A DNA stretch of 32,687 nt from Gammaproteobacteria bacterium (GTDB lineage Bacteria > Pseudomonadota > Gammaproteobacteria > Immundisolibacterales > JAKLLR01), in NCBI GenBank assembly GCA_022014175.1, contig JAKLLR010000012.1, positions 1 to 32,687 on the forward strand, in the 5' to 3' direction. Of this stretch, positions 5,020 to 24,217 are shown one piece after another. The notes under the pieces are model-generated. The model ran no database searches, was not told where the DNA came from, and saw only the letters and a list, made by a program, of their open reading frames with translations. A program made the position numbers and the translations under genes. How positions within the stretch are numbered: position 1 is the stretch's first letter; the number at the start of each line of letters is the position of its first letter.

Positions 5020-5131
5020 TCTCCCTCCACTCCAAAGAAACTCAGAAATTATTTTTGTAGCCGACTCGCCAAACAGACCAGAGCCGCAACTTGCACCAAA
5101 CCCGCTTTATCAGCTCGGGATGGGCTCTGAG

Positions 5132-5162
5132 ATTAGAGCATACAAACGACCGTTCATGTCAA
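5132..5162 (-). promoter_or_regulatory. Candidate promoter with embedded palindrome upstream of the DUF1302 gene
   Basis: On the minus strand, perfect TTGACA (plus tgtcaa 5157-5162), then palindrome AACG-N2-CGTT (5145-5154), then a weak -10-like TCTAAT (5132-5137). Confidence 0.35.
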
Positions 5163-5353
5163 GTTTTTTGAGGGTGATGCAAGACCACCCCCTTGATCCC
5201 ACCTTCCTGGGGCCTAGGGCAGGGGCACAACTTTACGATAAACGTGCGCCGGCGCGCGGATCTGGGAACGCGACCGGATCTGCCGGCGTCAGGGAAAGAA
5301 GGGGCTATTAAAGGGGGGTAACGGACACGAAACAGGTCGCGACACTAGCTATT

Positions 5354-5427
5354 TGGCTGGGGGACAAGGATTCGAACCTTGGTTGGCGGAGTCAGAGTCC
5401 GCTGTCCTACCACTAGACGATCCCCCA
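5354..5427 (-). tRNA. tRNA-Gln (anticodon CTG), 3' CCA encoded
   Basis: Reverse complement TGGGGGATCGTCTAGTGGTAGGACAGCGGACTCTGACTCCGCCAACCAAGGTTCGAATCCTTGTCCCCCAGCCA folds as a cloverleaf. Anticodon stem GCGGA/TCCGC, loop CTCTGAC, T-arm CAAGG-TTCGAAT-CCTTG. Confidence 0.95.
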
Positions 5428-5432
5428 AAAAA

Positions 5433-5828
5433 TTAACGTTTGGAGAACTGGGTCGCGCGACGCGCCTTATGCAAACCCACTTTCTTACGTTCAACTTCAC
5501 GGGAATCCCGGGTCACCATGCCGGCCTTACGCAACACCGGTCGGAAAGATTCATCATGCGCCAACAGTGCTCGCGTGATGCCATGGCGAATCGCTCCGGC
5601 CTGACCACTGGGGCCTCCGCCGGTGACGTTCACAGTAATATCGAACTGGGATTCGCGATCAGTCAGCACCAGCGGCTGTCGCACCAGCATACGAGCCGTC
5701 TCACGGCCGAAGTACTCTTCCAGCGGTCGCTTGTTGACAGTGATGCTGCCGCTACCACGGCGCACCAACACCCGGGCGGTGGAGCTCTTGCGTCGACCCG
5801 TGGTTTGATACTGTTCCGGTTCACTCAT
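5433..5828 (-). CDS. rpsI: 30S ribosomal protein S9
   Basis: 131 aa; [14 protein letters not shown]...[20 protein letters not shown]...[25 protein letters not shown] is canonical S9. Confidence 0.98.
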
Positions 5829-5839
5829 AGCCTGACTTC

Positions 5840-6268
5840 CTATAACTCAAGCGGCTGTGGCTGCTGGGCCTGGTGGCCATGCTCACTGCCCGCATAGATT
5901 TTTAACTTGCGAATCATTGAACGCCCGAGGGAGTTCTTCGGCAACATTCCTTTAACCGCCAGCTCAATGATGCGGGTCGGTGCCTTCTCTCTGAGTTTCC
6001 CCAGAGTCGTCGTCTTAAGATTGCCGACATAACCGGTATGGTGCTGGTAGAGTTTGCTCTCGTTCTTGTTACCGGTAACCGCCACTTTCTCGGCGTTGAT
6101 GATCACGATGTAATCGCCGGTGTCTGCATGGGGGGTATAGATCGGTTTATGCTTGCCCCGCAGACGGCTCGCCACTTCGGTCGCCAGACGACCCAGAGTT
6201 TTGCCATCGGCATCAACCAGGAACCACTCGCGCTGAACATCAGCAGGGTTGGGAAATTCGGTTTTCAC
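5840..6268 (-). CDS. rplM: 50S ribosomal protein L13
   Basis: Canonical L13 sequence ([47 protein letters not shown]...[14 protein letters not shown]). GTG at 6268 gives [15 protein letters not shown], matching the usual L13 N-terminus better than the GTG at 6286. Confidence 0.95.
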
Positions 6269-6400
6269 TCGGTTCGCTCCGAACACGTTTGAATAGTTTT
6301 AGCGCAGCTCAAACAGGCTTACGCCGACAGAGCCCGCGGATGGTACGTAGGCCCAGGAGGACTGTCAATAACTACCCCGCTCACGGACGAAATCCGGGCC

Positions 6401-6428
6401 AAAAAAAAGCGTGGCAGGGGTGCCACGC
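6401..6428 (-). terminator. Rho-independent terminator for the minus-strand hydrolase operon
   Basis: GCGTGGCA-GGGG-TGCCACGC perfect 8-bp stem (6409-6428); the adjacent A8 (6401-6408) is a T8 tract on the minus strand. A second hairpin ATCATCC-TTGA-GGATGAT lies at 6433-6450. Confidence 0.85.
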
Positions 6429-6560
6429 TGAAATCATCCTTGAGGATGATGGAGGAGAAGTACCATTAAGAAGACTTAATGGGCCGCTGCAAGCAGCGAC
6501 GCCGCAAAGTATAAGCCAAGCATTTGTGCTCTGCAACATCATTTTGTTGCGCCGCGATAA

Positions 6561-7199
6561 TCAGGCATCACCACCCTCCATCAACCCCCTCACAGTCATA
6601 CGCAGGGCCTTAAGCTGGCCATGAAAGAAATGATCCGCTCCGGCTAACATGCGATACCGGGGCCGGTCCGGGTGTGCGCCGCACCATGCCCGGACTCCCG
6701 GCTCCGGGATCAACTGATCCTGCCCCCCGTGAACCACCCCCCAGGGCACCGAAATTCGGCGTTGCGGCTGGAAATACGACATATTTACCGGCGGGGCGAT
6801 CAATAACAGGCCGGTCAGACCCGGTAGCCCCCCGGTGCTGTGGTACGCCACCGCCGAGCCAAACGAAAAACCCGCCAACCATATTTCAGCACCAGGCGAC
6901 TGACTGCGCAGCCAGTCCCATACGGCGACCAGGTCCTCCCGCTCCCCCCGACCCTCATCGTGCAGACCCTCACTGGTGCCTGCGCCGCGAAAATTAAAAC
7001 GGACACTGGTCATGCCCATCTCAGCCATCGCTTTGGCCAGGGTGAACACCACCTTGTTGTCCATACTCCCCCCATGCAGAGGGTGGGGATGGCAGATCAC
7101 ACCACAGGAACCCGCCCTGTCAACTCCACCGGTCGGCCAGACCTCCAGTGCGCCAGCAGGGCCCGGAATCGTAAACCGCTCATCGCTTCGGCCACTCAT
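6561..7199 (-). CDS. Alpha/beta hydrolase (dienelactone-hydrolase-like)
   Basis: From MSGRSDERFTIPGPAGALEVWP...CHPHPLHGGSMDNKVVFTLAKAMAEMGMTSVRFNFRGAGTSEG...WLAGFSFGSAVAYH (GFSFGS nucleophile elbow)...GADHFFHGQL. Confidence 0.88.
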   Translation of the reverse strand: MSGRSDERFTIPGPAGALEVWPTGGVDRAGSCGVICHPHPLHGGSMDNKVVFTLAKAMAEMGMTSVRFNFRGAGTSEGLHDEGRGEREDLVAVWDWLRSQSPGAEIWLAGFSFGSAVAYHSTGGLPGLTGLLLIAPPVNMSYFQPQRRISVPWGVVHGGQDQLIPEPGVRAWCGAHPDRPRYRMLAGADHFFHGQLKALRMTVRGLMEGGDA

Positions 7200-15520: not shown

Positions 15521-18500
15521 TTACGCCAGTTCGCAGACCAGGTCTCCTGCCCCCACCGCAGCCCCCGCACTCAGGGGTAACCGTTTGACCACCCCGTCAC
15601 GGGGTGCCAACACCTGGTTCAACAGTTTCATCGCCTCGGTGCTGAGCAGCTTCTGACCCTCGGTCACCTCATCACCCTCGGTGACGTAGAGTTCTGCCAG
15701 GATGCCGGCCATGGGCGCACCGATCTGATTAACATCATCCGGATCCGCTTGCTGATTTGTCGCCACTTCGACATTGGCGGAGCGGTCGCTCACAACCTGA
15801 GCCCGGCGCTGGCCGTTCAGCTCGAAGAAAATTTCCCGGTTACCATTGGCCTGTAGCTCCCCCACCGCCAGCAGCTTCAGGATCAGGGTCTTGCCGGGCT
15901 CGATCTCCACAGCAAGCTCTTCACCGATTTTCGGACCGTAGAAAAACAGCGCGGTCTCTAATACCGAGACATCCCCAAAGCGTTCGTTAAAACGGGTGTA
16001 ATCCGTGAATACTTTCGGATACAAAGAGTAAGCGCTTACTTCGTCTTCGCTCGCCTCCCGCCCCAGGTCTTTACTCAGTGCGACCCGGTTACCGTCAAAA
16101 TCGTAAGGCTCCAGCAGCGCTCCGGGGCGTATCTTAATCGGCGCCTGGCTGCCAAGCACCGCTTTCTGCAGTTCTGGCGGGAAGCCTCCATCCGGCTGCC
16201 CCATCATGCCCCCGAGCAGGGAGACAAACGACTCCGGATAGGCCAGCTCGGTGCCCCTCTCCAGCACATCATCCGGGGTCAGGTCGTTCTGCACCATGAA
16301 CAGCGCCATGTCACCCACCGCTTTGGATGAGGGGGTCACTTTGATGATGTCACCGAGCATATCGTTCACTGTACGGTAGGCCCGCCGCACTTCATCCCAA
16401 CGCGCCCCAAGCCCCACGGAGACCGCCTGGGGCCGCAAATTGGAGTACTGACCACCCGGAATTTCATGGTGATAGACGTCCGCTGTGCCCGCTTTAAGAC
16501 CGCTCTCGAACGGTGCGTAGGCCTCTCGGGTACTCTCCCAGTAATCGGCCAGCTGCTGCAAACCGTCGGGGTCCAGACCGGTATCCCGGGGGCTGCCCTG
16601 CAGGGCGGTGACTAACGCATTCAGAGAGGGCTGAGAAGTCACCCCGGACATTGAGCTGATCGCCGCATCCACCACATCAACCCCGGCGGCGCTGGCCGCC
16701 AACAGGGTCGCAACCCCGTTGCCGCTGGTGTCGTGGGTATGCAGATGAACCGGGATGGTGAGGCTGTTTTTAAGCTCTGTCACCAGAATGCGAGCTGCAT
16801 CCGGTTTCAGCAGACCCGCCATATCCTTGATCGCCAGAATATGGGCACCCGCCTGCTCCAGCGCCCGGGCCCGCTCGATATAGTAGGGCAGGGTGAACTT
16901 GGTCCGGCTGGAGTCGTTGATATCACCGCTATAGCAGACTGCCGCTTCCGCGATCTTGCCAGTCTCAATCACCCTGGCGATGCAGGGCCGCAGCCCTTCA
17001 ACCCAGTTCAGGCAATCAAAAATACGGAATACATCAATACCATTGTCGGCTGCCTGATCGATAAAGTGATTAACCACATTATCGGGATAGTTGGTGTAAC
17101 CCACCGCGTTACCGGAGCGCAGCAGCATCTGCAGCAAGGTGCCTGGCATTAACCGCCGCAGCTGACGTAACCGCTCCCAGGGGTCTTCATGCAGAAAACG
17201 GTAAGCTACATCAAAGGTCGCGCCGCCCCACATTTCGGACGAGAACAGATCACCGGCCAGGTGGGCGGTCGCCGGGGCAATCCGATAGAGATCACGGCTG
17301 CGAACCCGGGTCGCCAGCAGAGACTGATGGGCATCCCTGAAGGTGGTATCCGTCAGCAGCAGCCGGGGTTGCTCCAGCAGCCATTTGCCCAGCGCCTCCG
17401 GACCCTTCTCACTGAATACCGAATAAGCCGGAGACGGGGGAGGGGTGGTCTGCGCGACCCGAGGCAGGATCGGCTCCGGCAACCCTTTCGGAATCTGCGC
17501 TGTCGTGATGCCAGGGAATCCGTTCACCACCAGTTCCGACAGATACTCCAGAAGACGATTGGCACGATCCTTACGGGGCGCAAACTGAAGCAACTCCGGA
17601 TTCTGATCAATAAAATTGGTGTCAAATTCACCGCTGAGAAACTCCGGGTGCTGCAGCAGATTCTCCAGAAACGGGATATTGGTCTTGACCCCCCGAATCC
17701 GAAATTCTCGCAACGACCTCAGAGCCTTGGCTGCCGCCTGATCGAAATCCAGCGCCCAACAGCAGACTTTCATCAGCAGAGAGTCGTAGTGAGGGGTGAT
17801 CACGGAACCCGTGAACCCGGCACCAGTATCCAGCCGAATACCAAAGCCCTCGCCGGGCCGGAAGGTCGAAATGCGACCGGTATCCGGAGCAAAACCGTTG
17901 GCGGGGTCCTCAGTGGTGAGCCGGAGCTGGATGCAGTAACCGCTCTTCTTGACCTGCCCCTGAGAGGCAATGCGAATCGCCTCTGAACCCAGCGCATAAC
18001 CCTCCGCCACCTTGATCTGGCACTGCACCAAATCCCGTCCGGTGATCACCTCAGTGATAGTATGCTCCACCTGAATTCGGGGATTTACTTCAATGAAGTA
18101 GTGCTGCCCGCTGCCATCCACCAGAAATTCCACGGTGCCCGCGTTGCGGTAACTCACAGAACCCGCAATTTTGAGGGCATCCGCATAGAGGGCCTCACGC
18201 TGGGCCTTGCTCAGGGTCAGAGAGGGGGCGATCTCCACCACTTTTTGGTGGCGCCGCTGGACGGAACAGTCCCGCTCGAACAGATGCACCAGATTGCCGT
18301 AGGCGTCTCCCAGCACCTGCACCTCAATGTGCTTGGGGCTGGCCAGATACTTCTCCACAAAAATCCGGGGGCTGCCGAATGCAGCCTGGGCCTCTGCCCG
18401 ACCGCGGCTCATCGCCGCCACCAGCTCATCATCACTGTTGACAATGGTCATACCACGACCGCCACCACCCAGAGCCGCTTTAACAATCAGCGGATAACCC

Positions 18501-18994
18501 GCAGTCACCGCAAATGCCAGAGCGTCCTGGTCCCGCTCAATGACGCCATCCGTGCCGGGGATGACGGGCACGCCAGCCTTGATCGCCACATCGCGGGCAG
18601 AGACCTTGTCTCCCAGCTCGTCCAAAACCCGGGAAGGGGGGCCGATAAAGACAATGCCCGCCGCTTCGCAGGCCCTGGCAAAGTGCGCATTTTCCGAGAG
18701 AAAGCCGTAACCCGGATGGATCGCGTCGATATCCTTCTCCAACGCCAGCGCAATAATCTCATCAATCGCCAGATAGGCCTGAATCGGCGAAAGCCCGGCA
18801 CCAATCTGGTAGGCCTCATCCGCCTTGTAACGGTGCAGGGTCAGCCGATCTTCATCGGAGTAGATCGCAACGGTGGTAATGCCCAACTCGGTACAGGCCC
18901 GGAAAACCCGAATCGCGATCTCCCCACGGTTGGCGACCAAAACCCGTTTGAAAGGCGTTATTGTCGGGGCGGCTGTGGACTCAGACATTATCAA
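15521..18994 (-). CDS. pyc: Pyruvate carboxylase, single-chain
   Basis: 1157 aa: biotin carboxylase (KRVLVANRGEIAIRVFRACTELG; GGGGRGM), carboxyltransferase (DTTFRDAHQSLLATRVR) and C-terminal biotinyl domain (STEAMKLLNQVLAP). Confidence 0.97.
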   Translation of the reverse strand: MIMSESTAAPTITPFKRVLVANRGEIAIRVFRACTELGITTVAIYSDEDRLTLHRYKADEAYQIGAGLSPIQAYLAIDEIIALALEKDIDAIHPGYGFLSENAHFARACEAAGIVFIGPPSRVLDELGDKVSARDVAIKAGVPVIPGTDGVIERDQDALAFAVTAGYPLIVKAALGGGGRGMTIVNSDDELVAAMSRGRAEAQAAFGSPRIFVEKYLASPKHIEVQVLGDAYGNLVHLFERDCSVQRRHQKVVEIAPSLTLSKAQREALYADALKIAGSVSYRNAGTVEFLVDGSGQHYFIEVNPRIQVEHTITEVITGRDLVQCQIKVAEGYALGSEAIRIASQGQVKKSGYCIQLRLTTEDPANGFAPDTGRISTFRPGEGFGIRLDTGAGFTGSVITPHYDSLLMKVCCWALDFDQAAAKALRSLREFRIRGVKTNIPFLENLLQHPEFLSGEFDTNFIDQNPELLQFAPRKDRANRLLEYLSELVVNGFPGITTAQIPKGLPEPILPRVAQTTPPPSPAYSVFSEKGPEALGKWLLEQPRLLLTDTTFRDAHQSLLATRVRSRDLYRIAPATAHLAGDLFSSEMWGGATFDVAYRFLHEDPWERLRQLRRLMPGTLLQMLLRSGNAVGYTNYPDNVVNHFIDQAADNGIDVFRIFDCLNWVEGLRPCIARVIETGKIAEAAVCYSGDINDSSRTKFTLPYYIERARALEQAGAHILAIKDMAGLLKPDAARILVTELKNSLTIPVHLHTHDTSGNGVATLLAASAAGVDVVDAAISSMSGVTSQPSLNALVTALQGSPRDTGLDPDGLQQLADYWESTREAYAPFESGLKAGTADVYHHEIPGGQYSNLRPQAVSVGLGARWDEVRRAYRTVNDMLGDIIKVTPSSKAVGDMALFMVQNDLTPDDVLERGTELAYPESFVSLLGGMMGQPDGGFPPELQKAVLGSQAPIKIRPGALLEPYDFDGNRVALSKDLGREASEDEVSAYSLYPKVFTDYTRFNERFGDVSVLETALFFYGPKIGEELAVEIEPGKTLILKLLAVGELQANGNREIFFELNGQRRAQVVSDRSANVEVATNQQADPDDVNQIGAPMAGILAELYVTEGDEVTEGQKLLSTEAMKLLNQVLAPRDGVVKRLPLSAGAAVGAGDLVCELA

Positions 18995-19078
18995 TTAATT
19001 CCGTTTTGGGGCAGACAACCACCATTCTGGTGCAATTTCCCACGGGTGCAAGCCCCGGAGAGGGCAACCCTGTCAACG

Positions 19079-19095
19079 AATGAGCCACACTCATT
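19079..19095. promoter_or_regulatory. Candidate operator in the pyc/marR divergent intergenic region
   Basis: AATGAG-CCACA-CTCATT perfect 6-bp inverted repeat with 5-nt spacer. Confidence 0.4.
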
Positions 19096-19167
19096 GAAAA
19101 CGGGGTTGCAGCGACCTGAAAATTTATGTAAATAGTCTTGCTATTAATCCCTTCTAGCACCGCTCTC

Positions 19168-19638
19168 ATGGACAAATATATTAGAACGCCCGCCGGTGTC
19201 ATGGTCGAAAATCTGCTGCGGGAAGCCGAACTGCTCAGCCGCGAGCTGCAGACCGCCTGCCCAATAGATGCACCGGGACTCGGCCCCGCCCATAGTCGTT
19301 GCCTGGAGAGCCTGAGCATCCGGGGTCCAGGCCGACTACCCGAGATCGCTGAACGTCTCGACTGCAGCCGTCAACGTGCCCAGCAGCTGGTTGAAACGTT
19401 GATTGCACAGAAAGCCGTCCGCCGTGTAACCAACCCCAACCATCGCCGCTCTGCCCATATTGAAATTACTGATCGGGGCCGCAAACTCCTTCACCGCCTG
19501 ATTGCCCAGCAAACCCAACTGAGTGAAGAGCTTGCGGTTCCGCTCTCCCCCCAGGAAATCAAAACAACGCTGCAAACCTTGCGCCAGTTGCATCGGTTGA
19601 TGGCGGACAGGCGACCGGGGCAGGGCACCCCAACCTGA
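19168..19638 (+). CDS. MarR-family transcriptional regulator
   Basis: Winged-helix pattern: HSRCLESLSIRGPGRLPEIAERLDCSRQRAQQLVETLIAQKAVRRVTNPNHRRSAHIEITDRGRKLLHRL. ATG at 19168; the track start 19138 is TTG. Confidence 0.85.
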   Translation: MDKYIRTPAGVMVENLLREAELLSRELQTACPIDAPGLGPAHSRCLESLSIRGPGRLPEIAERLDCSRQRAQQLVETLIAQKAVRRVTNPNHRRSAHIEITDRGRKLLHRLIAQQTQLSEELAVPLSPQEIKTTLQTLRQLHRLMADRRPGQGTPT

Positions 19639-19744: not shown

Positions 19745-19806
19745 CTTAACGCCAGACCCGCCGCGCATCACTAAAACCCACATCATTCGGATAGGAGTTA
19801 TTTAAG

Positions 19807-21279
19807 ATGGCTGGGATCACTGCCTTTGGCGGCTATGTGCCGCGGCTTCGACTGGAGCACAAAGCAATCGCCGACGCGCACAGCTGGTACGACCCCTCGG
19901 TGGCCAAACGGGCCAAAGCCGAGCGCAGCATGTGCAACTGGGACGAAGACTCAATCACCATGGCCGTCGAAGCGGCACGAGACTGTCTGCAGGGTATTAA
20001 TTCAGCCCCGACCAGCCTCTACCTGGCTTCAACCAGCCTGCCATTTTCAGATCGCCAGAACGCCGGCATCGTCGTCGAAGCGCTGCATCTGGGCGAAGCG
20101 ACAGCGGTGATGGATGTCACGGCATCCCAGCGGGCAGGCACCTCCGCCCTGATGCAGGCGCTGGACGCGGCCACTGGCACCCCCGGCAGCCAGCGACTGG
20201 TGATTGGCTCAGAGCATCGTAAAAGTCGTGCGGGTTCACCCCAGGAACTCAATTTCGGCGACGGCGCCTGCGCGCTGCTGGTGGCTGACCAGAACCCCTT
20301 GCTGGAGTATATCGGTGGACACGCGATCACCGTCGATTTCGTCGACCACTTCCGGGCCGAACACGAAGATTACGACTACCCCTGGGAGGATCGCTGGATC
20401 CGGGACGAAGGTTACGCCGGGATCGCACCCCGAGCGGTCCAGGGGGCCCTCGAAAAACATGGTCTCAGGGCAGACCAGATCGACCACCTGATCATGCCTG
20501 GACTGGCTGGCAAGGCCGCCGGCCTGGTGGCAAAGAAGAGTGGCATTGCTGCCGAAGCCGCCTACACCGGCCTGCACACAGAGTGCGGCGATACCGGCAG
20601 CGCCCACGCTCTGGTGATGCTGGCCCACGCCCTCGAAGGTGCCGTTAAACCCGGAGAGCGGGTGATGGTGGTCGGGTTCGGGCAGGGCTGTGATGTGCTG
20701 TTGTTCAAAGCCACTCCAGCGCTGGCCAGCTACCGGCCCGGCACCGGTATTCGCGGCGCACTGGCCAATCGCCAGGCGGAGACAAGCTACCAGAAATTCC
20801 TCACCTTCAACGACACAGTGGAGTGGGAAAAAGGCATGCGGGGCGAGCGGGACAACCGCACCGCGCTCACCGTGCTCTATCGCAAACGGGGGATGCTGCT
20901 GGGGCTGGTCGGCGGCCGCTGTACGGCCTGCGGCACCCCCCAGATTCCCCAGGGTGACATCTGCGTTAATCCGGAGTGTCACGCCGACAGCCAGCTGGAG
21001 CCCTACAACTTCCGCGAAGAGCGGGCCAAGATCCTCAGCTGGTCGGCAGATTACCTCACCTTTACCAAGAGCCCGCCCTCCCATTACGGCATGATCACTT
21101 TCGATAACGGCGGTCGTTTCATGACTGACTTTACCGATGTAGAGCCGGGGGAAATTGAGGTCGGCGACCCGGTTAGAATGGTGTTTCGCATCAAGGCTTT
21201 CGATACTCAGCGCGGTTTTGTCCGCTATTTCTGGAAAGCCGTCCCGGTTCGGGATACACAAGATTCAGGAGAGCGTTAA
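19807..21279 (+). CDS. HMG-CoA-synthase-like (thiolase-fold) protein fused to a DUF35 zinc-ribbon/OB-fold domain
   Basis: N-terminus MAGITAFGGYVPRLRLEHKAIADAHSW...DEDSITMAVEAARDCL resembles archaeal-type HMGCS. C-terminus RCTACGTPQIPQGDICVNPEC plus OB-like WSADYLTFTKSPPSHYGMITFDNGGRFMTDFTDV is DUF35. Confidence 0.9.
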   Translation: MAGITAFGGYVPRLRLEHKAIADAHSWYDPSVAKRAKAERSMCNWDEDSITMAVEAARDCLQGINSAPTSLYLASTSLPFSDRQNAGIVVEALHLGEATAVMDVTASQRAGTSALMQALDAATGTPGSQRLVIGSEHRKSRAGSPQELNFGDGACALLVADQNPLLEYIGGHAITVDFVDHFRAEHEDYDYPWEDRWIRDEGYAGIAPRAVQGALEKHGLRADQIDHLIMPGLAGKAAGLVAKKSGIAAEAAYTGLHTECGDTGSAHALVMLAHALEGAVKPGERVMVVGFGQGCDVLLFKATPALASYRPGTGIRGALANRQAETSYQKFLTFNDTVEWEKGMRGERDNRTALTVLYRKRGMLLGLVGGRCTACGTPQIPQGDICVNPECHADSQLEPYNFREERAKILSWSADYLTFTKSPPSHYGMITFDNGGRFMTDFTDVEPGEIEVGDPVRMVFRIKAFDTQRGFVRYFWKAVPVRDTQDSGER

Positions 21280-22478
21280 TGGCTAGTGGAATCAAAGACA
21301 AAGTTGCCATCCTTGGGATGGGTTGCTGCAAATTCGGCGAGCGCTGGGAGTCTGGCCCCGAAGAGTTGATGGTTGAGGCGTACCGTGAAGCGATGACCGA
21401 CGCCGGAATTGAGCCGGAGCAGATCGACGCGGCCTGGTTCTCAACCCATCTCGATACCATCGGCTCCGGCAAGGGCGGTCTACCCCTCTCCATCGCCCTG
21501 CGGCTGCCCAATATCGGCGTCACCCGGGTGGAGAATTTCTGCGCCAGCGGCACCGAAGCTTTTCGTGGCGCGGTCTACGCCGTTGCATCGGGGGCCTGTG
21601 ACATCGCTCTGGCCGTCGGAGTTGAGAAGTTGAAAGATACCGGCTTCGGCGGGCTGCCCCCAACCGATACCGGTCTCTTCACGTCACAATGGGTGGCCAC
21701 CGGCTCCGCCCCCGGGAACTTTGCCCAGCTTGCCGCCGCCTACCGGACCAAACACGGCGTCGACAAAGACGACCTGAAACGGGCCATGGCCCATATTTCG
21801 GTCAAGAGCCACACCAACGGGGCGAAGAATCCAAAAGCCCACCTGCGCAAAGTGATCACCGAGGAGCAGGCGATCAACGCCCCGATGATCGCCGAGCCAC
21901 TGGGCCTGTTCGACTGCTGTGGTGTCAGCGATGGTGCCGCCGCAGCGATTGTCTGTAGCCCTGAATTGGCTCGCAAACTGGGCAAGCGCGATCTGGTCAT
22001 GGTCAAAGCACTGCAGTTGGCCCTCTCTAACGGCTCCGAAGCATCCTATAACGACTGGGACAGCACCCATTTCCATACCACCCGCATTGCCGCAACCAGG
22101 GCCTACAATGAAGCGGGCATCAAAAGCCCGCGAGAAGAAGTCAGCATGTTTGAAGTGCATGACTGCTTCTCCATCACCGAACTGGTGACCATGGAGGACC
22201 TCTTCATCTCCGAGGAGGGCAGGGCGGTGCATGATGTGCTTGACGGGGTTTACGACGCCGATGGGGCCGTACCCTGCCAGATCGACGGCGGCCTGAAGTG
22301 CTTCGGCCATCCGATAGGCGCCTCTGGCATCCGCATGCTCTACGAGATGTATCTGCAACTGCAGGGCAGGGCGGGGGAACGGCAGCTGCCCGACCCGAAG
22401 CTCGGCATGACCCACAATCTTGGCGGCCAACCGCAACAGAATGTGGCCGCCATTTGCATCGTTGGCGCCGAGGGCTAG
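21279..22478 (+). CDS. SCP2-type thiolase / acetyl-CoA acetyltransferase family protein
   Basis: VAILGMGCCKFGERW...TRVENFCASGTEAFRGAVYAVASG (nucleophilic Cys)...GGLKCFGHPIGASGIRMLYEMYLQLQGRAG...MTHNLGG. Overlaps or abuts the upstream stop. Confidence 0.92.
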   Translation: MASGIKDKVAILGMGCCKFGERWESGPEELMVEAYREAMTDAGIEPEQIDAAWFSTHLDTIGSGKGGLPLSIALRLPNIGVTRVENFCASGTEAFRGAVYAVASGACDIALAVGVEKLKDTGFGGLPPTDTGLFTSQWVATGSAPGNFAQLAAAYRTKHGVDKDDLKRAMAHISVKSHTNGAKNPKAHLRKVITEEQAINAPMIAEPLGLFDCCGVSDGAAAAIVCSPELARKLGKRDLVMVKALQLALSNGSEASYNDWDSTHFHTTRIAATRAYNEAGIKSPREEVSMFEVHDCFSITELVTMEDLFISEEGRAVHDVLDGVYDADGAVPCQIDGGLKCFGHPIGASGIRMLYEMYLQLQGRAGERQLPDPKLGMTHNLGGQPQQNVAAICIVGAEG

Positions 22479-22657: not shown

Positions 22658-23071
22658 ATGGCGCCAATGAACAAACAGATTCAACTGCTGACGTCAGTTA
22701 CCCTGATCCTGCTGCTCACGGCCTGTAGCCACTACGGGATCGAGAAAAAGGCCCTGGCCCTCGACACAGCCATGAACCGCTACGCCACTGCGGTCCGCTG
22801 GGGTGAATGGAACACGGTGTACCGCATGCACCTGCCCCTGAACGAAGCAAAGATCCCCCCGGAAGCGATCAAGACCATTCGCGTGACCGCCTATCAGGAG
22901 CTCGGGGCGGCCCAGATGGATACCCCGGAAACGGCCACCCGAGTTGCCATAATTCGCTACATCAACGAAGAGACCCAGGCAGAAGCTTCGCTGCGGCAGG
23001 AGCAGCGGTGGCGCTACGATAGCGAGAACCTGTTCTGGGGGCTGGACAGTCCGCCCCCGTTCTTCGACTAG
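22658..23071 (+). CDS. Putative lipoprotein
   Basis: MNKQIQLLTSVTLILLLTACSHYG: signal sequence with lipobox LTAC. Confidence 0.7.
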   Translation: MAPMNKQIQLLTSVTLILLLTACSHYGIEKKALALDTAMNRYATAVRWGEWNTVYRMHLPLNEAKIPPEAIKTIRVTAYQELGAAQMDTPETATRVAIIRYINEETQAEASLRQEQRWRYDSENLFWGLDSPPPFFD

Positions 23072-23117: not shown

Positions 23118-23753
23118 GTGTTCAAAAACAGACAGGCCGCCGCTGAACAGCTCGCCGAGGCACTGTCTGATCTGAAGGGCCAAAACCCACTGATACTGGC
23201 CATCCCCCGGGGTGCAGTCCCCATGGGCGCGCTGCTGGCAGAGCGACTGGAGGGCGAGTTGGATGTCGTACTGGTCCGCAAATTCGCCGCTCCCGGTCAA
23301 CCTGAATTTGCCATCGGCGCCATCGACGAGCAGGGCCGCGTCTATCTGGCCCCCCACGCAGCCAGACTGGGGATCTCGGACAGCCACCTGCAGGAACAGC
23401 AGCGACAACAGTTGGCCCTGATCCGGAGTCGCCGCCTGCGCTACACCCCGAACCGGCCACCGATATCTGTGACCGGCCGCACCGTTGTGGTGCTGGACGA
23501 TGGCATCGCCACCGGTTCAACCATGCTGGCCGCCCTTCAAACCCTGCGGGCGCAGCACCCCAGAGCGCTGATCGCCGCCACCCCGGTGGCGGCCCCCGAC
23601 TCAGTCGAGCGGATCAAACTGGCGACGGACCGGTTCTGCTGCCTGCTCACACCACCGGAGTTCCAGGCTGTCGGCCAGTTCTACCGGGACTTCCCCCAGA
23701 TCGGCGACTATGAAGTCATTGCGCTGCTAAACCCGGCAGCCGCCAACGCCTGA
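23118..23753 (+). CDS. Phosphoribosyltransferase family protein
   Basis: PRPP-binding motif VVVLDDGIATGSTM; N-terminal FKNRQAAAEQLAEAL...ILAIPRGAVPMGALLAERL...VVLVRKFAAPGQPEFAIGAI. GTG start. Confidence 0.9.
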   Translation: MFKNRQAAAEQLAEALSDLKGQNPLILAIPRGAVPMGALLAERLEGELDVVLVRKFAAPGQPEFAIGAIDEQGRVYLAPHAARLGISDSHLQEQQRQQLALIRSRRLRYTPNRPPISVTGRTVVVLDDGIATGSTMLAALQTLRAQHPRALIAATPVAAPDSVERIKLATDRFCCLLTPPEFQAVGQFYRDFPQIGDYEVIALLNPAAANA

Positions 23754-23779: not shown

Positions 23780-24217
23780 ATGCAACATCTGATATCCATC
23801 ACTCTCATACTGTTATCTGCTCTTGCCACTACCGCCGTCAACGCCGACCCGGCGGAAGAAGTCAAAGCCACGGACCAGCGCCGGGTTACCGCCCTGCTCA
23901 CTGCGGACTCTGAGACCCTGGATCAGCTCCTCGCCCCCGAGCTGCGCTACACCCACGCCAACGGCATGGTCGATAGCAAAGCCAGCTACATGGCCAGTTT
24001 CATCGGTCGTAAGGTGATCCATAAACAGGTCACCACCGACGATGTTGAAGTGATTGCCTATGGTCCCGTTGCCGTAGCCACCGGCAGCAGCCATGTGGTG
24101 GTGGAGTACAAAGGGCGAGACCTGGACCTGAACATCCGCTTCACCTCGGTCTACCGCAAACAAGGCAACCGCTGGCAACTGGTGGCCTGGCAGTCCACCC
24201 CCGTTAAAGAGCTCTAA
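23780..24217 (+). CDS. Secreted NTF2-like (DUF4440-type) protein
   Basis: Signal peptide plus AEEVKATDQRRVTALLTADSETLDQLLAPELRYTHANGMVDSKASYMASF...VYRKQGNRWQLVAWQSTPV. Confidence 0.85.
   Translation: MQHLISITLILLSALATTAVNADPAEEVKATDQRRVTALLTADSETLDQLLAPELRYTHANGMVDSKASYMASFIGRKVIHKQVTTDDVEVIAYGPVAVATGSSHVVVEYKGRDLDLNIRFTSVYRKQGNRWQLVAWQSTPVKEL

Follow-up and report, generated by a model that had tools for sequence, protein, structure and literature searches.

In the acyltransferase PpATase, the HMGCS-like subunit PhlA lacks the catalytic Cys (Gly115) and Glu (Cys83) of HMG-CoA synthase, and the substrate is contacted by residues of PhlC only (PMC6392133). The DUF35 protein PhlB mediates assembly, its N-terminal tail is buried against both PhlA and PhlC, and activity requires the co-expression of all three proteins (PMC6392133). 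In the archaeal acetoacetyl-CoA thiolase/DUF35/HMGCS complex (6ESQ), DUF35 bridges HMGCS and thiolase and the CoA site is shared, with CoA at an interface of all three proteins (PMC6392133). The archaeal HMGCS is catalytically complete (Glu82, Cys114 and His), and its complex, which belongs to the mevalonate pathway, is made of separate polypeptides. MucABC of Streptococcus macacae (9VBO/9VBT) is another multi-component acyltransferase, and its HMGCS-like subunit has C/E/Q in place of the triad. Triad-less HMGCS-like scaffolds are therefore already known in PhlA and MucA, pseudo-HMGCS subunits that were overlooked in an earlier note on the DNA described here. DUF35 proteins are also bound to catabolic thiolase-fold enzymes acting on bulky CoA esters (PMC12329534). 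These DUF35-thiolase or DUF35-aldolase pairs, such as the benzoylsuccinyl-CoA thiolase BbsAB (7PXP), ChsH2-Ltp2 and Shy-Sal, differ in having no HMGCS-like domain.

We analyzed a gene in a 32,687-nucleotide stretch of gammaproteobacterial DNA (the window) that encodes an HMGCS-like domain and DUF35 in a single protein. Our literature search for a described HMGCS and DUF35 fusion found nothing on this family. It is most likely a fused variant of the PhlA-like scaffolds and not a new enzyme class; what is new is the fused clade itself, its obligate pairing with a thiolase, its wide distribution, and what probably explains an 'HMG-CoA synthase' of an estrogen-degradation operon.

The fused protein and its nearest solved relatives

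The fused gene lies at 19807..21279 on the forward strand, as do all features below unless stated, and encodes 490 amino acids from an ATG start, with a ribosome-binding-site-like AGGAG (19793..19797) 9 nt before it. The fusion is present as the earlier note had described it. Residues 1-335 (19807..20811) match HMGCS and KAS III models and were assigned to a thiolase-fold domain with Foldseek and phmmer. They are followed by a linker (residues 336-365, 20812..20901), delimited by the family alignment and model confidence, and by the two parts of DUF35, a zinc ribbon and an OB fold (residues 366-480). The OB fold (OB_ChsH2_C, 20992..21246; 1.2e-10, and 8e-9 for 6esq_E) scores 41.6, above its cut-off of 27.1. 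The zinc ribbon (zf-ChsH2, 20902..20991) scores 20.5, slightly under its cut-off of 23.2, with all four Cys retained (C372, C375, C386 and C391), in agreement with the earlier reading. In Sphingomonas paeninsulae and Sphingopyxis macrogoltabida (L115:12001-13446, L127:5980-7410) the zinc-ribbon Cys are partly or wholly gone, so zinc may be dispensable for the fused architecture.

An AlphaFold2 monomer model, for which the family alignment served as input, has the HMGCS/KAS III fold (pLDDT 86.8, pTM 0.90). In the comparison with archaeal HMGCS that the earlier note had proposed, Foldseek returned TM-scores by target of 0.88-0.89 for 6esq_I and 6et9_I (0.88 for 6ESQ; 3.5e-25 for 6esq_I), while PhlA (9skh_A) gave about 0.85-0.86. 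The best phmmer matches in the PDB were PhlA (9SKH, 6e-27; 5M3K, 1e-23) and the HMGCS subunit of 6ESQ (5e-21), the DUF35 subunit of 6ESQ being among them as well. A 61-member family profile found 9SKH at 1e-51, 5M3K at 3e-49, 6ESQ at 2e-40 and MucA (9VBO) at 1e-31. By sequence and fold, then, the nearest solved proteins are PhlA, archaeal HMGCS and MucA, of which MucA is not fused and only remotely similar (18% identity in the Foldseek alignment).

The locus shares with the archaeal complex its three building blocks, and with PhlACB (PpATase, 5M3K/5MG5; CsATase, 9SKH) the combination of DUF35 with a thiolase-like subunit and its HMGCS-like partner. The linker also matches the buried N-terminal tail of PhlB in position. 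Unlike in PhlACB, the A and B components are one polypeptide here and the thiolase partner comes from NF004810. PhlABC-type enzymes are characterized by an (A2C2)2B4 assembly and CoA-independent acyl transfer.

Residues at the HMGCS catalytic positions

Glu82, Cys114 and His of Methanothermococcus thermolithotrophicus HMGCS (6ESQ) correspond to T76 (codon 20032..20034), Q108 (20128..20130) and P231 (20497..20499) of the fused protein. Pairwise phmmer alignments with solved chains, the 61-sequence profile and MAFFT all gave this register, from which the pocket residues were mapped by alignment, and they bear out the earlier note in having Glu, Cys and His all replaced. PhlA, by comparison, has C/G/Q at the triad positions. 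Among 82 close relatives, T76 is found in all, P231 in 80 and Q108 in 70 (Leu in 11, Met in one). We extended the alignment to 105 fused homologues from Proteobacteria, Desulfobacterota, Chloroflexi, Actinobacteria and haloarchaea, a set that includes the deeper branches (Actinobacteria, haloarchaea, Sphingopyxis and an estrogen-degrader plasmid). Thr occupies the Glu position in 103 of these and Glu in none; Pro occupies the His position in 89 and His in two; Gln occupies the Cys position in 77 and Cys in none. Conservation across the fused family, which the earlier note had suggested checking, does not hold for Q. Because the changes recur in the 82 close relatives and the 105 homologues, the triad loss is neither chance nor a sequencing artefact, and on these counts it is the fused clade as a whole that has lost the catalytic residues. 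As judged from the alignments, residues 1-335 appear to form a catalytically empty domain.

Could the protein be a true HMG-CoA synthase whose catalytic residues have moved elsewhere? HMGCS models are its best curated-family matches, and public databases annotate fused proteins as HMG-CoA synthase, KAS III C-terminal domain or OB-fold protein. However, every triad position is altered, the alignment of 105 homologues has no conserved substitute Cys, and the scores for the HMGCS equivalogs NF003274 (158 against 244 bits) and TIGR00748 (112.6 against 353) fall well under the cut-offs. The host genome also carries the MEP enzyme Dxr, so there is no sign that HMG-CoA is needed for isoprenoids. We rejected this identity on these four grounds and give it almost no chance of being correct, which upholds the earlier warning that the automatic annotation would mislead.

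Replacement of Cys by Gln turns KS domains into decarboxylases, and KS-type decarboxylation requires His and Asn partners. The earlier note had left the choice between a structural or acyl-CoA-presenting subunit for the neighboring thiolase and an enzyme with different chemistry. In a KSQ-like form of the latter, Q108 would stand in for the nucleophilic Cys and malonyl- or methylmalonyl-CoA would be decarboxylated for the adjacent thiolase. Gln is present in the window protein and in the majority of homologues, and the structure of a FabH C112Q mutant (9ka5) is among the fold matches. Relatives in the same operon setting, however, have L, R, M, H, P, G, A, S or T instead, making ten amino acids at this position, and the residue switches repeatedly along the tree, as expected where it has no chemical job. 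Gln here is a lineage preference and not a feature of the whole fused family. The decarboxylation partners are missing too, since His is replaced by Pro, and the G-N-T loop of KAS and HMGCS has D262 in place of its Asn in the fused protein (G-D262-T; codon 20590..20592, from the alignments), with Glu or Asp in most relatives. A Gln that is only a lineage preference and has lost its His partner speaks against a KSQ-like catalytic device, as does the degradative context of annotated relatives described below. The decarboxylase was rejected on the family variation and the loss of His and Asn, and we hold it to be very improbable; of the two options in the earlier note, the structural subunit is the better supported, with PhlA as its precedent (PMC6392133).

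The emptied domain nevertheless retains more near-invariant polar residues than a pure scaffold would appear to require, which counts against a scaffold role. In the proteobacterial clade these are D103, R138, E147, H181, R183, W193-E-E-R-W-x-R199, H267 and Q293. Several fall in the motif DFVDHFR...DYxWEERWIRDEGY (residues 177-202, 20335..20412), which was delimited by alignment and the monomer model and is nearly invariant in the proteobacterial/desulfobacterial clade. Model confidence is reduced within it (pLDDT 60-72 across residues 181-200), and it is a candidate interface or substrate loop. Confidence is lowest in the linker, at less than 50 for residues 346-349, although the fused-family alignment has R345 and E347 near-invariant and R359 invariant. 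To judge from the monomer model, motif and linker may both be surfaces that become ordered upon complex formation.

The same residues raise the question of whether the HMGCS-like domain is some other enzyme, for example one catalyzing hydrolysis, isomerisation or aldol cleavage through clade-specific residues such as H181, H267, E194, R199 or Q293, whose conservation within the core clade is 90-100%. The thiolase-fold aldolase CtSal is a precedent for such repurposing of the fold (PMC12329534). Against this, H181, H267 and Q293 are inconsistently kept in actinobacterial, haloarchaeal and estrogen-cluster members, which have the same fusion and thiolase, and the neighboring thiolase with its intact residues already accounts for a reaction. 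We think other chemistry unlikely. Similarly doubtful is a version limited to the proteobacterial/desulfobacterial clade, in which the emptied pocket has been rebuilt from T76, Q108, R138, E147, H181, R183, the WEERWxR segment (193-199), H267 and Q293 as a new site carrying out or controlling a second reaction of the CoA ester passed to the thiolase. If true, the pair would be a bifunctional channelling enzyme with chemistry undescribed for the HMGCS fold.

The thiolase partner and its gene context

The thiolase gene (21279..22478; NF004810/PRK06157, 694.7 bits against a cut-off of 403) shares 1 nt with the end of the fused gene, its start codon beginning inside the stop codon (TAATG). Its catalytic residues C88, H294 (HDCF) and H344 (GHP) are conserved in all 90 partners compared. 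When 369 genomes from the class were searched, the fused gene and an above-cut-off thiolase occurred in the same 10 genomes, with 11 copies each, and neither was found in the remaining genomes (Fisher p about 9e-20). Within the host order (8 genomes), no orthologue of the fused gene was found, only FabH-like matches (E 2e-4). Of 80 loci from a species-wide collection, 72 have the thiolase directly after the fused gene; seven of the other eight are cut off by a contig end and one (L087) contains masked sequence. Pairwise distances of the two proteins are correlated (r = 0.93). The components of a PhlABC-type system are thus encoded together, and as in PhlA and PhlC the HMGCS-like part lacks Cys and Glu while the thiolase-like Cys88 is kept. 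By analogy, this fixed pairing of one active and one apparently emptied thiolase-fold protein resembles that of PhlC with PhlA.

Beyond this pair, the window gives no clue to a pathway. A MarR-family regulator upstream of the fused gene (19138..19638) has no homologue in related loci and is therefore outside the conserved module; homologues in related loci were likewise absent for 17189-17986, 18062-19135, 22658-23071, 23118-23753 and 23780-24217. Upstream of the module, the other strand (15521-18994) carries a gene for a pyruvate-carboxylase-type protein with biotin carboxylase, HMGL-like, PYC_OADA and biotinyl domains. No beta-oxidation genes flank the pair in the window. Elsewhere in the host genome, two loci (L128, which is G000:C74:1-11105, and L129) have further thiolase-like genes next to DUF35 genes that stand alone, together with genes for an acyl-CoA ligase and a CoA transferase. 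These are unfused DUF35/thiolase pairs of the Ltp2/BbsAB kind without the fused HMGCS-like domain.

Annotated relatives of the fused gene are flanked by varying combinations of acyl-CoA dehydrogenases, MaoC hydratases, SDRs, enoyl-CoA hydratases, and CoA ligases or CoA transferases. Such catabolic flanks occur in Sphingomonas, Variovorax, Sphingobium TomTYG74, N. pentaromativorans, Rhodococcus, M. avium, Streptomyces, Sphingopyxis and haloarchaea. Among 49 unannotated loci of at least 12 kb, an acyl-CoA dehydrogenase homologue lies within about 5 kb in 16, an SDR in 15, MaoC in 11 and a CoA transferase in 9, these being raw counts without a background rate. The clusters of annotated relatives point to degradative thiolysis as the probable reaction.

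A catabolic role competes with the idea that the pair is a biosynthetic acyltransferase carrying out PhlABC/MucABC-like C- or N-acylation. That PhlABC and MucABC are the nearest solved relatives and that catabolic neighbors are absent from the window agrees with biosynthesis, and the latter also counts against thiolysis. But in an unrooted tree with only five outgroup rows, a single clade (100/99 support) holds the fused proteins and leaves out MtHMGCS, PhlA, MucA and a PhlA-like protein of Priestia. Relatives adjoin acyl-CoA dehydrogenases, MaoC hydratases, SDRs and ligases, in one case within an estrogen-type cluster, and desulfobacterotal members are fused to SDR and SCP2. A biosynthetic function therefore seems improbable to us.

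We consider it likely that the fused protein is a non-catalytic 'A+B' subunit, the scaffold and CoA-site wall of a two-polypeptide, PhlA+PhlB-like and most likely thiolytic thiolase complex. The HMGCS-like domain (equivalent to PhlA) and DUF35 (equivalent to PhlB) would be packed, as one polypeptide, around the adjacent thiolase (equivalent to PhlC) and would complete its CoA/acyl channel. The thiolase would do all of the covalent chemistry, with C88 being acylated and H294 and H344 acting as acid/base. The complex would most likely run in the direction of CoA-dependent thiolysis, cleaving a bulky or branched 3-oxoacyl-CoA in the final step of a beta-oxidation-like module in which the complex follows an acyl-CoA dehydrogenase, a MaoC hydratase and an SDR.

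Breadth of the fused family and an estrogen-degradation homologue

The fused architecture takes several forms. In loci of the Desulfobacterota type (L046, L048, L050, L051, L053, L055, L060-L062, L064, L067-L069 and L071, and further L076, L078, L081 and L085-L087) the fused protein runs in frame into an SDR, and forms of about 910 amino acids also carry SCP2, giving a four-domain multifunctional protein with the thiolase next to it. A Chloroflexi-labelled contig (L075) has tandem fused genes (1292-2839 and 5088-6605), each followed by its own thiolase. On haloarchaeal plasmids (L122:4829-7416, L123:4808-7557) the fusion is in reversed order with the thiolase first, adjoins phenylacetate-type catabolic genes, and is labelled as a zinc ribbon protein or HMG-CoA synthase. 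A plasmid of Priestia megaterium (L126:2992-5770) instead encodes an unfused trio of PhlA-like protein (S/G/Q), thiolase and zinc ribbon beside a condensation-domain gene, probably a PhlABC/MucABC-like acyltransferase.

A homologue on a deeper branch, 31% identical to the window protein, was found in Novosphingobium ES2-1. It is fused and triad-less (T/L/S), and lies in an estrogen-type cluster whose gene order matches the one published for the edc OpA operon in C. (Novosphingobium) tardaugens (PMC7793797). That operon carries an 'HMG-CoA synthase', EGO55_13555, with no assigned pathway step, which its authors guessed might itself have thiolase activity (PMC7793797). Like the ES2-1 gene, EGO55_13555 lies beside a thiolase, a dehydrogenase and an acyl-CoA dehydrogenase, and its gene order and description make it a likely member of the fused family.

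The fused family is large, mislabelled and apparently degradative. If its members are catalytically dead partners, their thiolases should be active only when co-expressed with the fused protein, and EGO55_13555, as the dead partner of the adjacent thiolase, would give a puzzling edc gene a role. The PhlA-type scaffold principle would then extend from antibiotic biosynthesis to many apparently catabolic operons in bacteria and haloarchaea.
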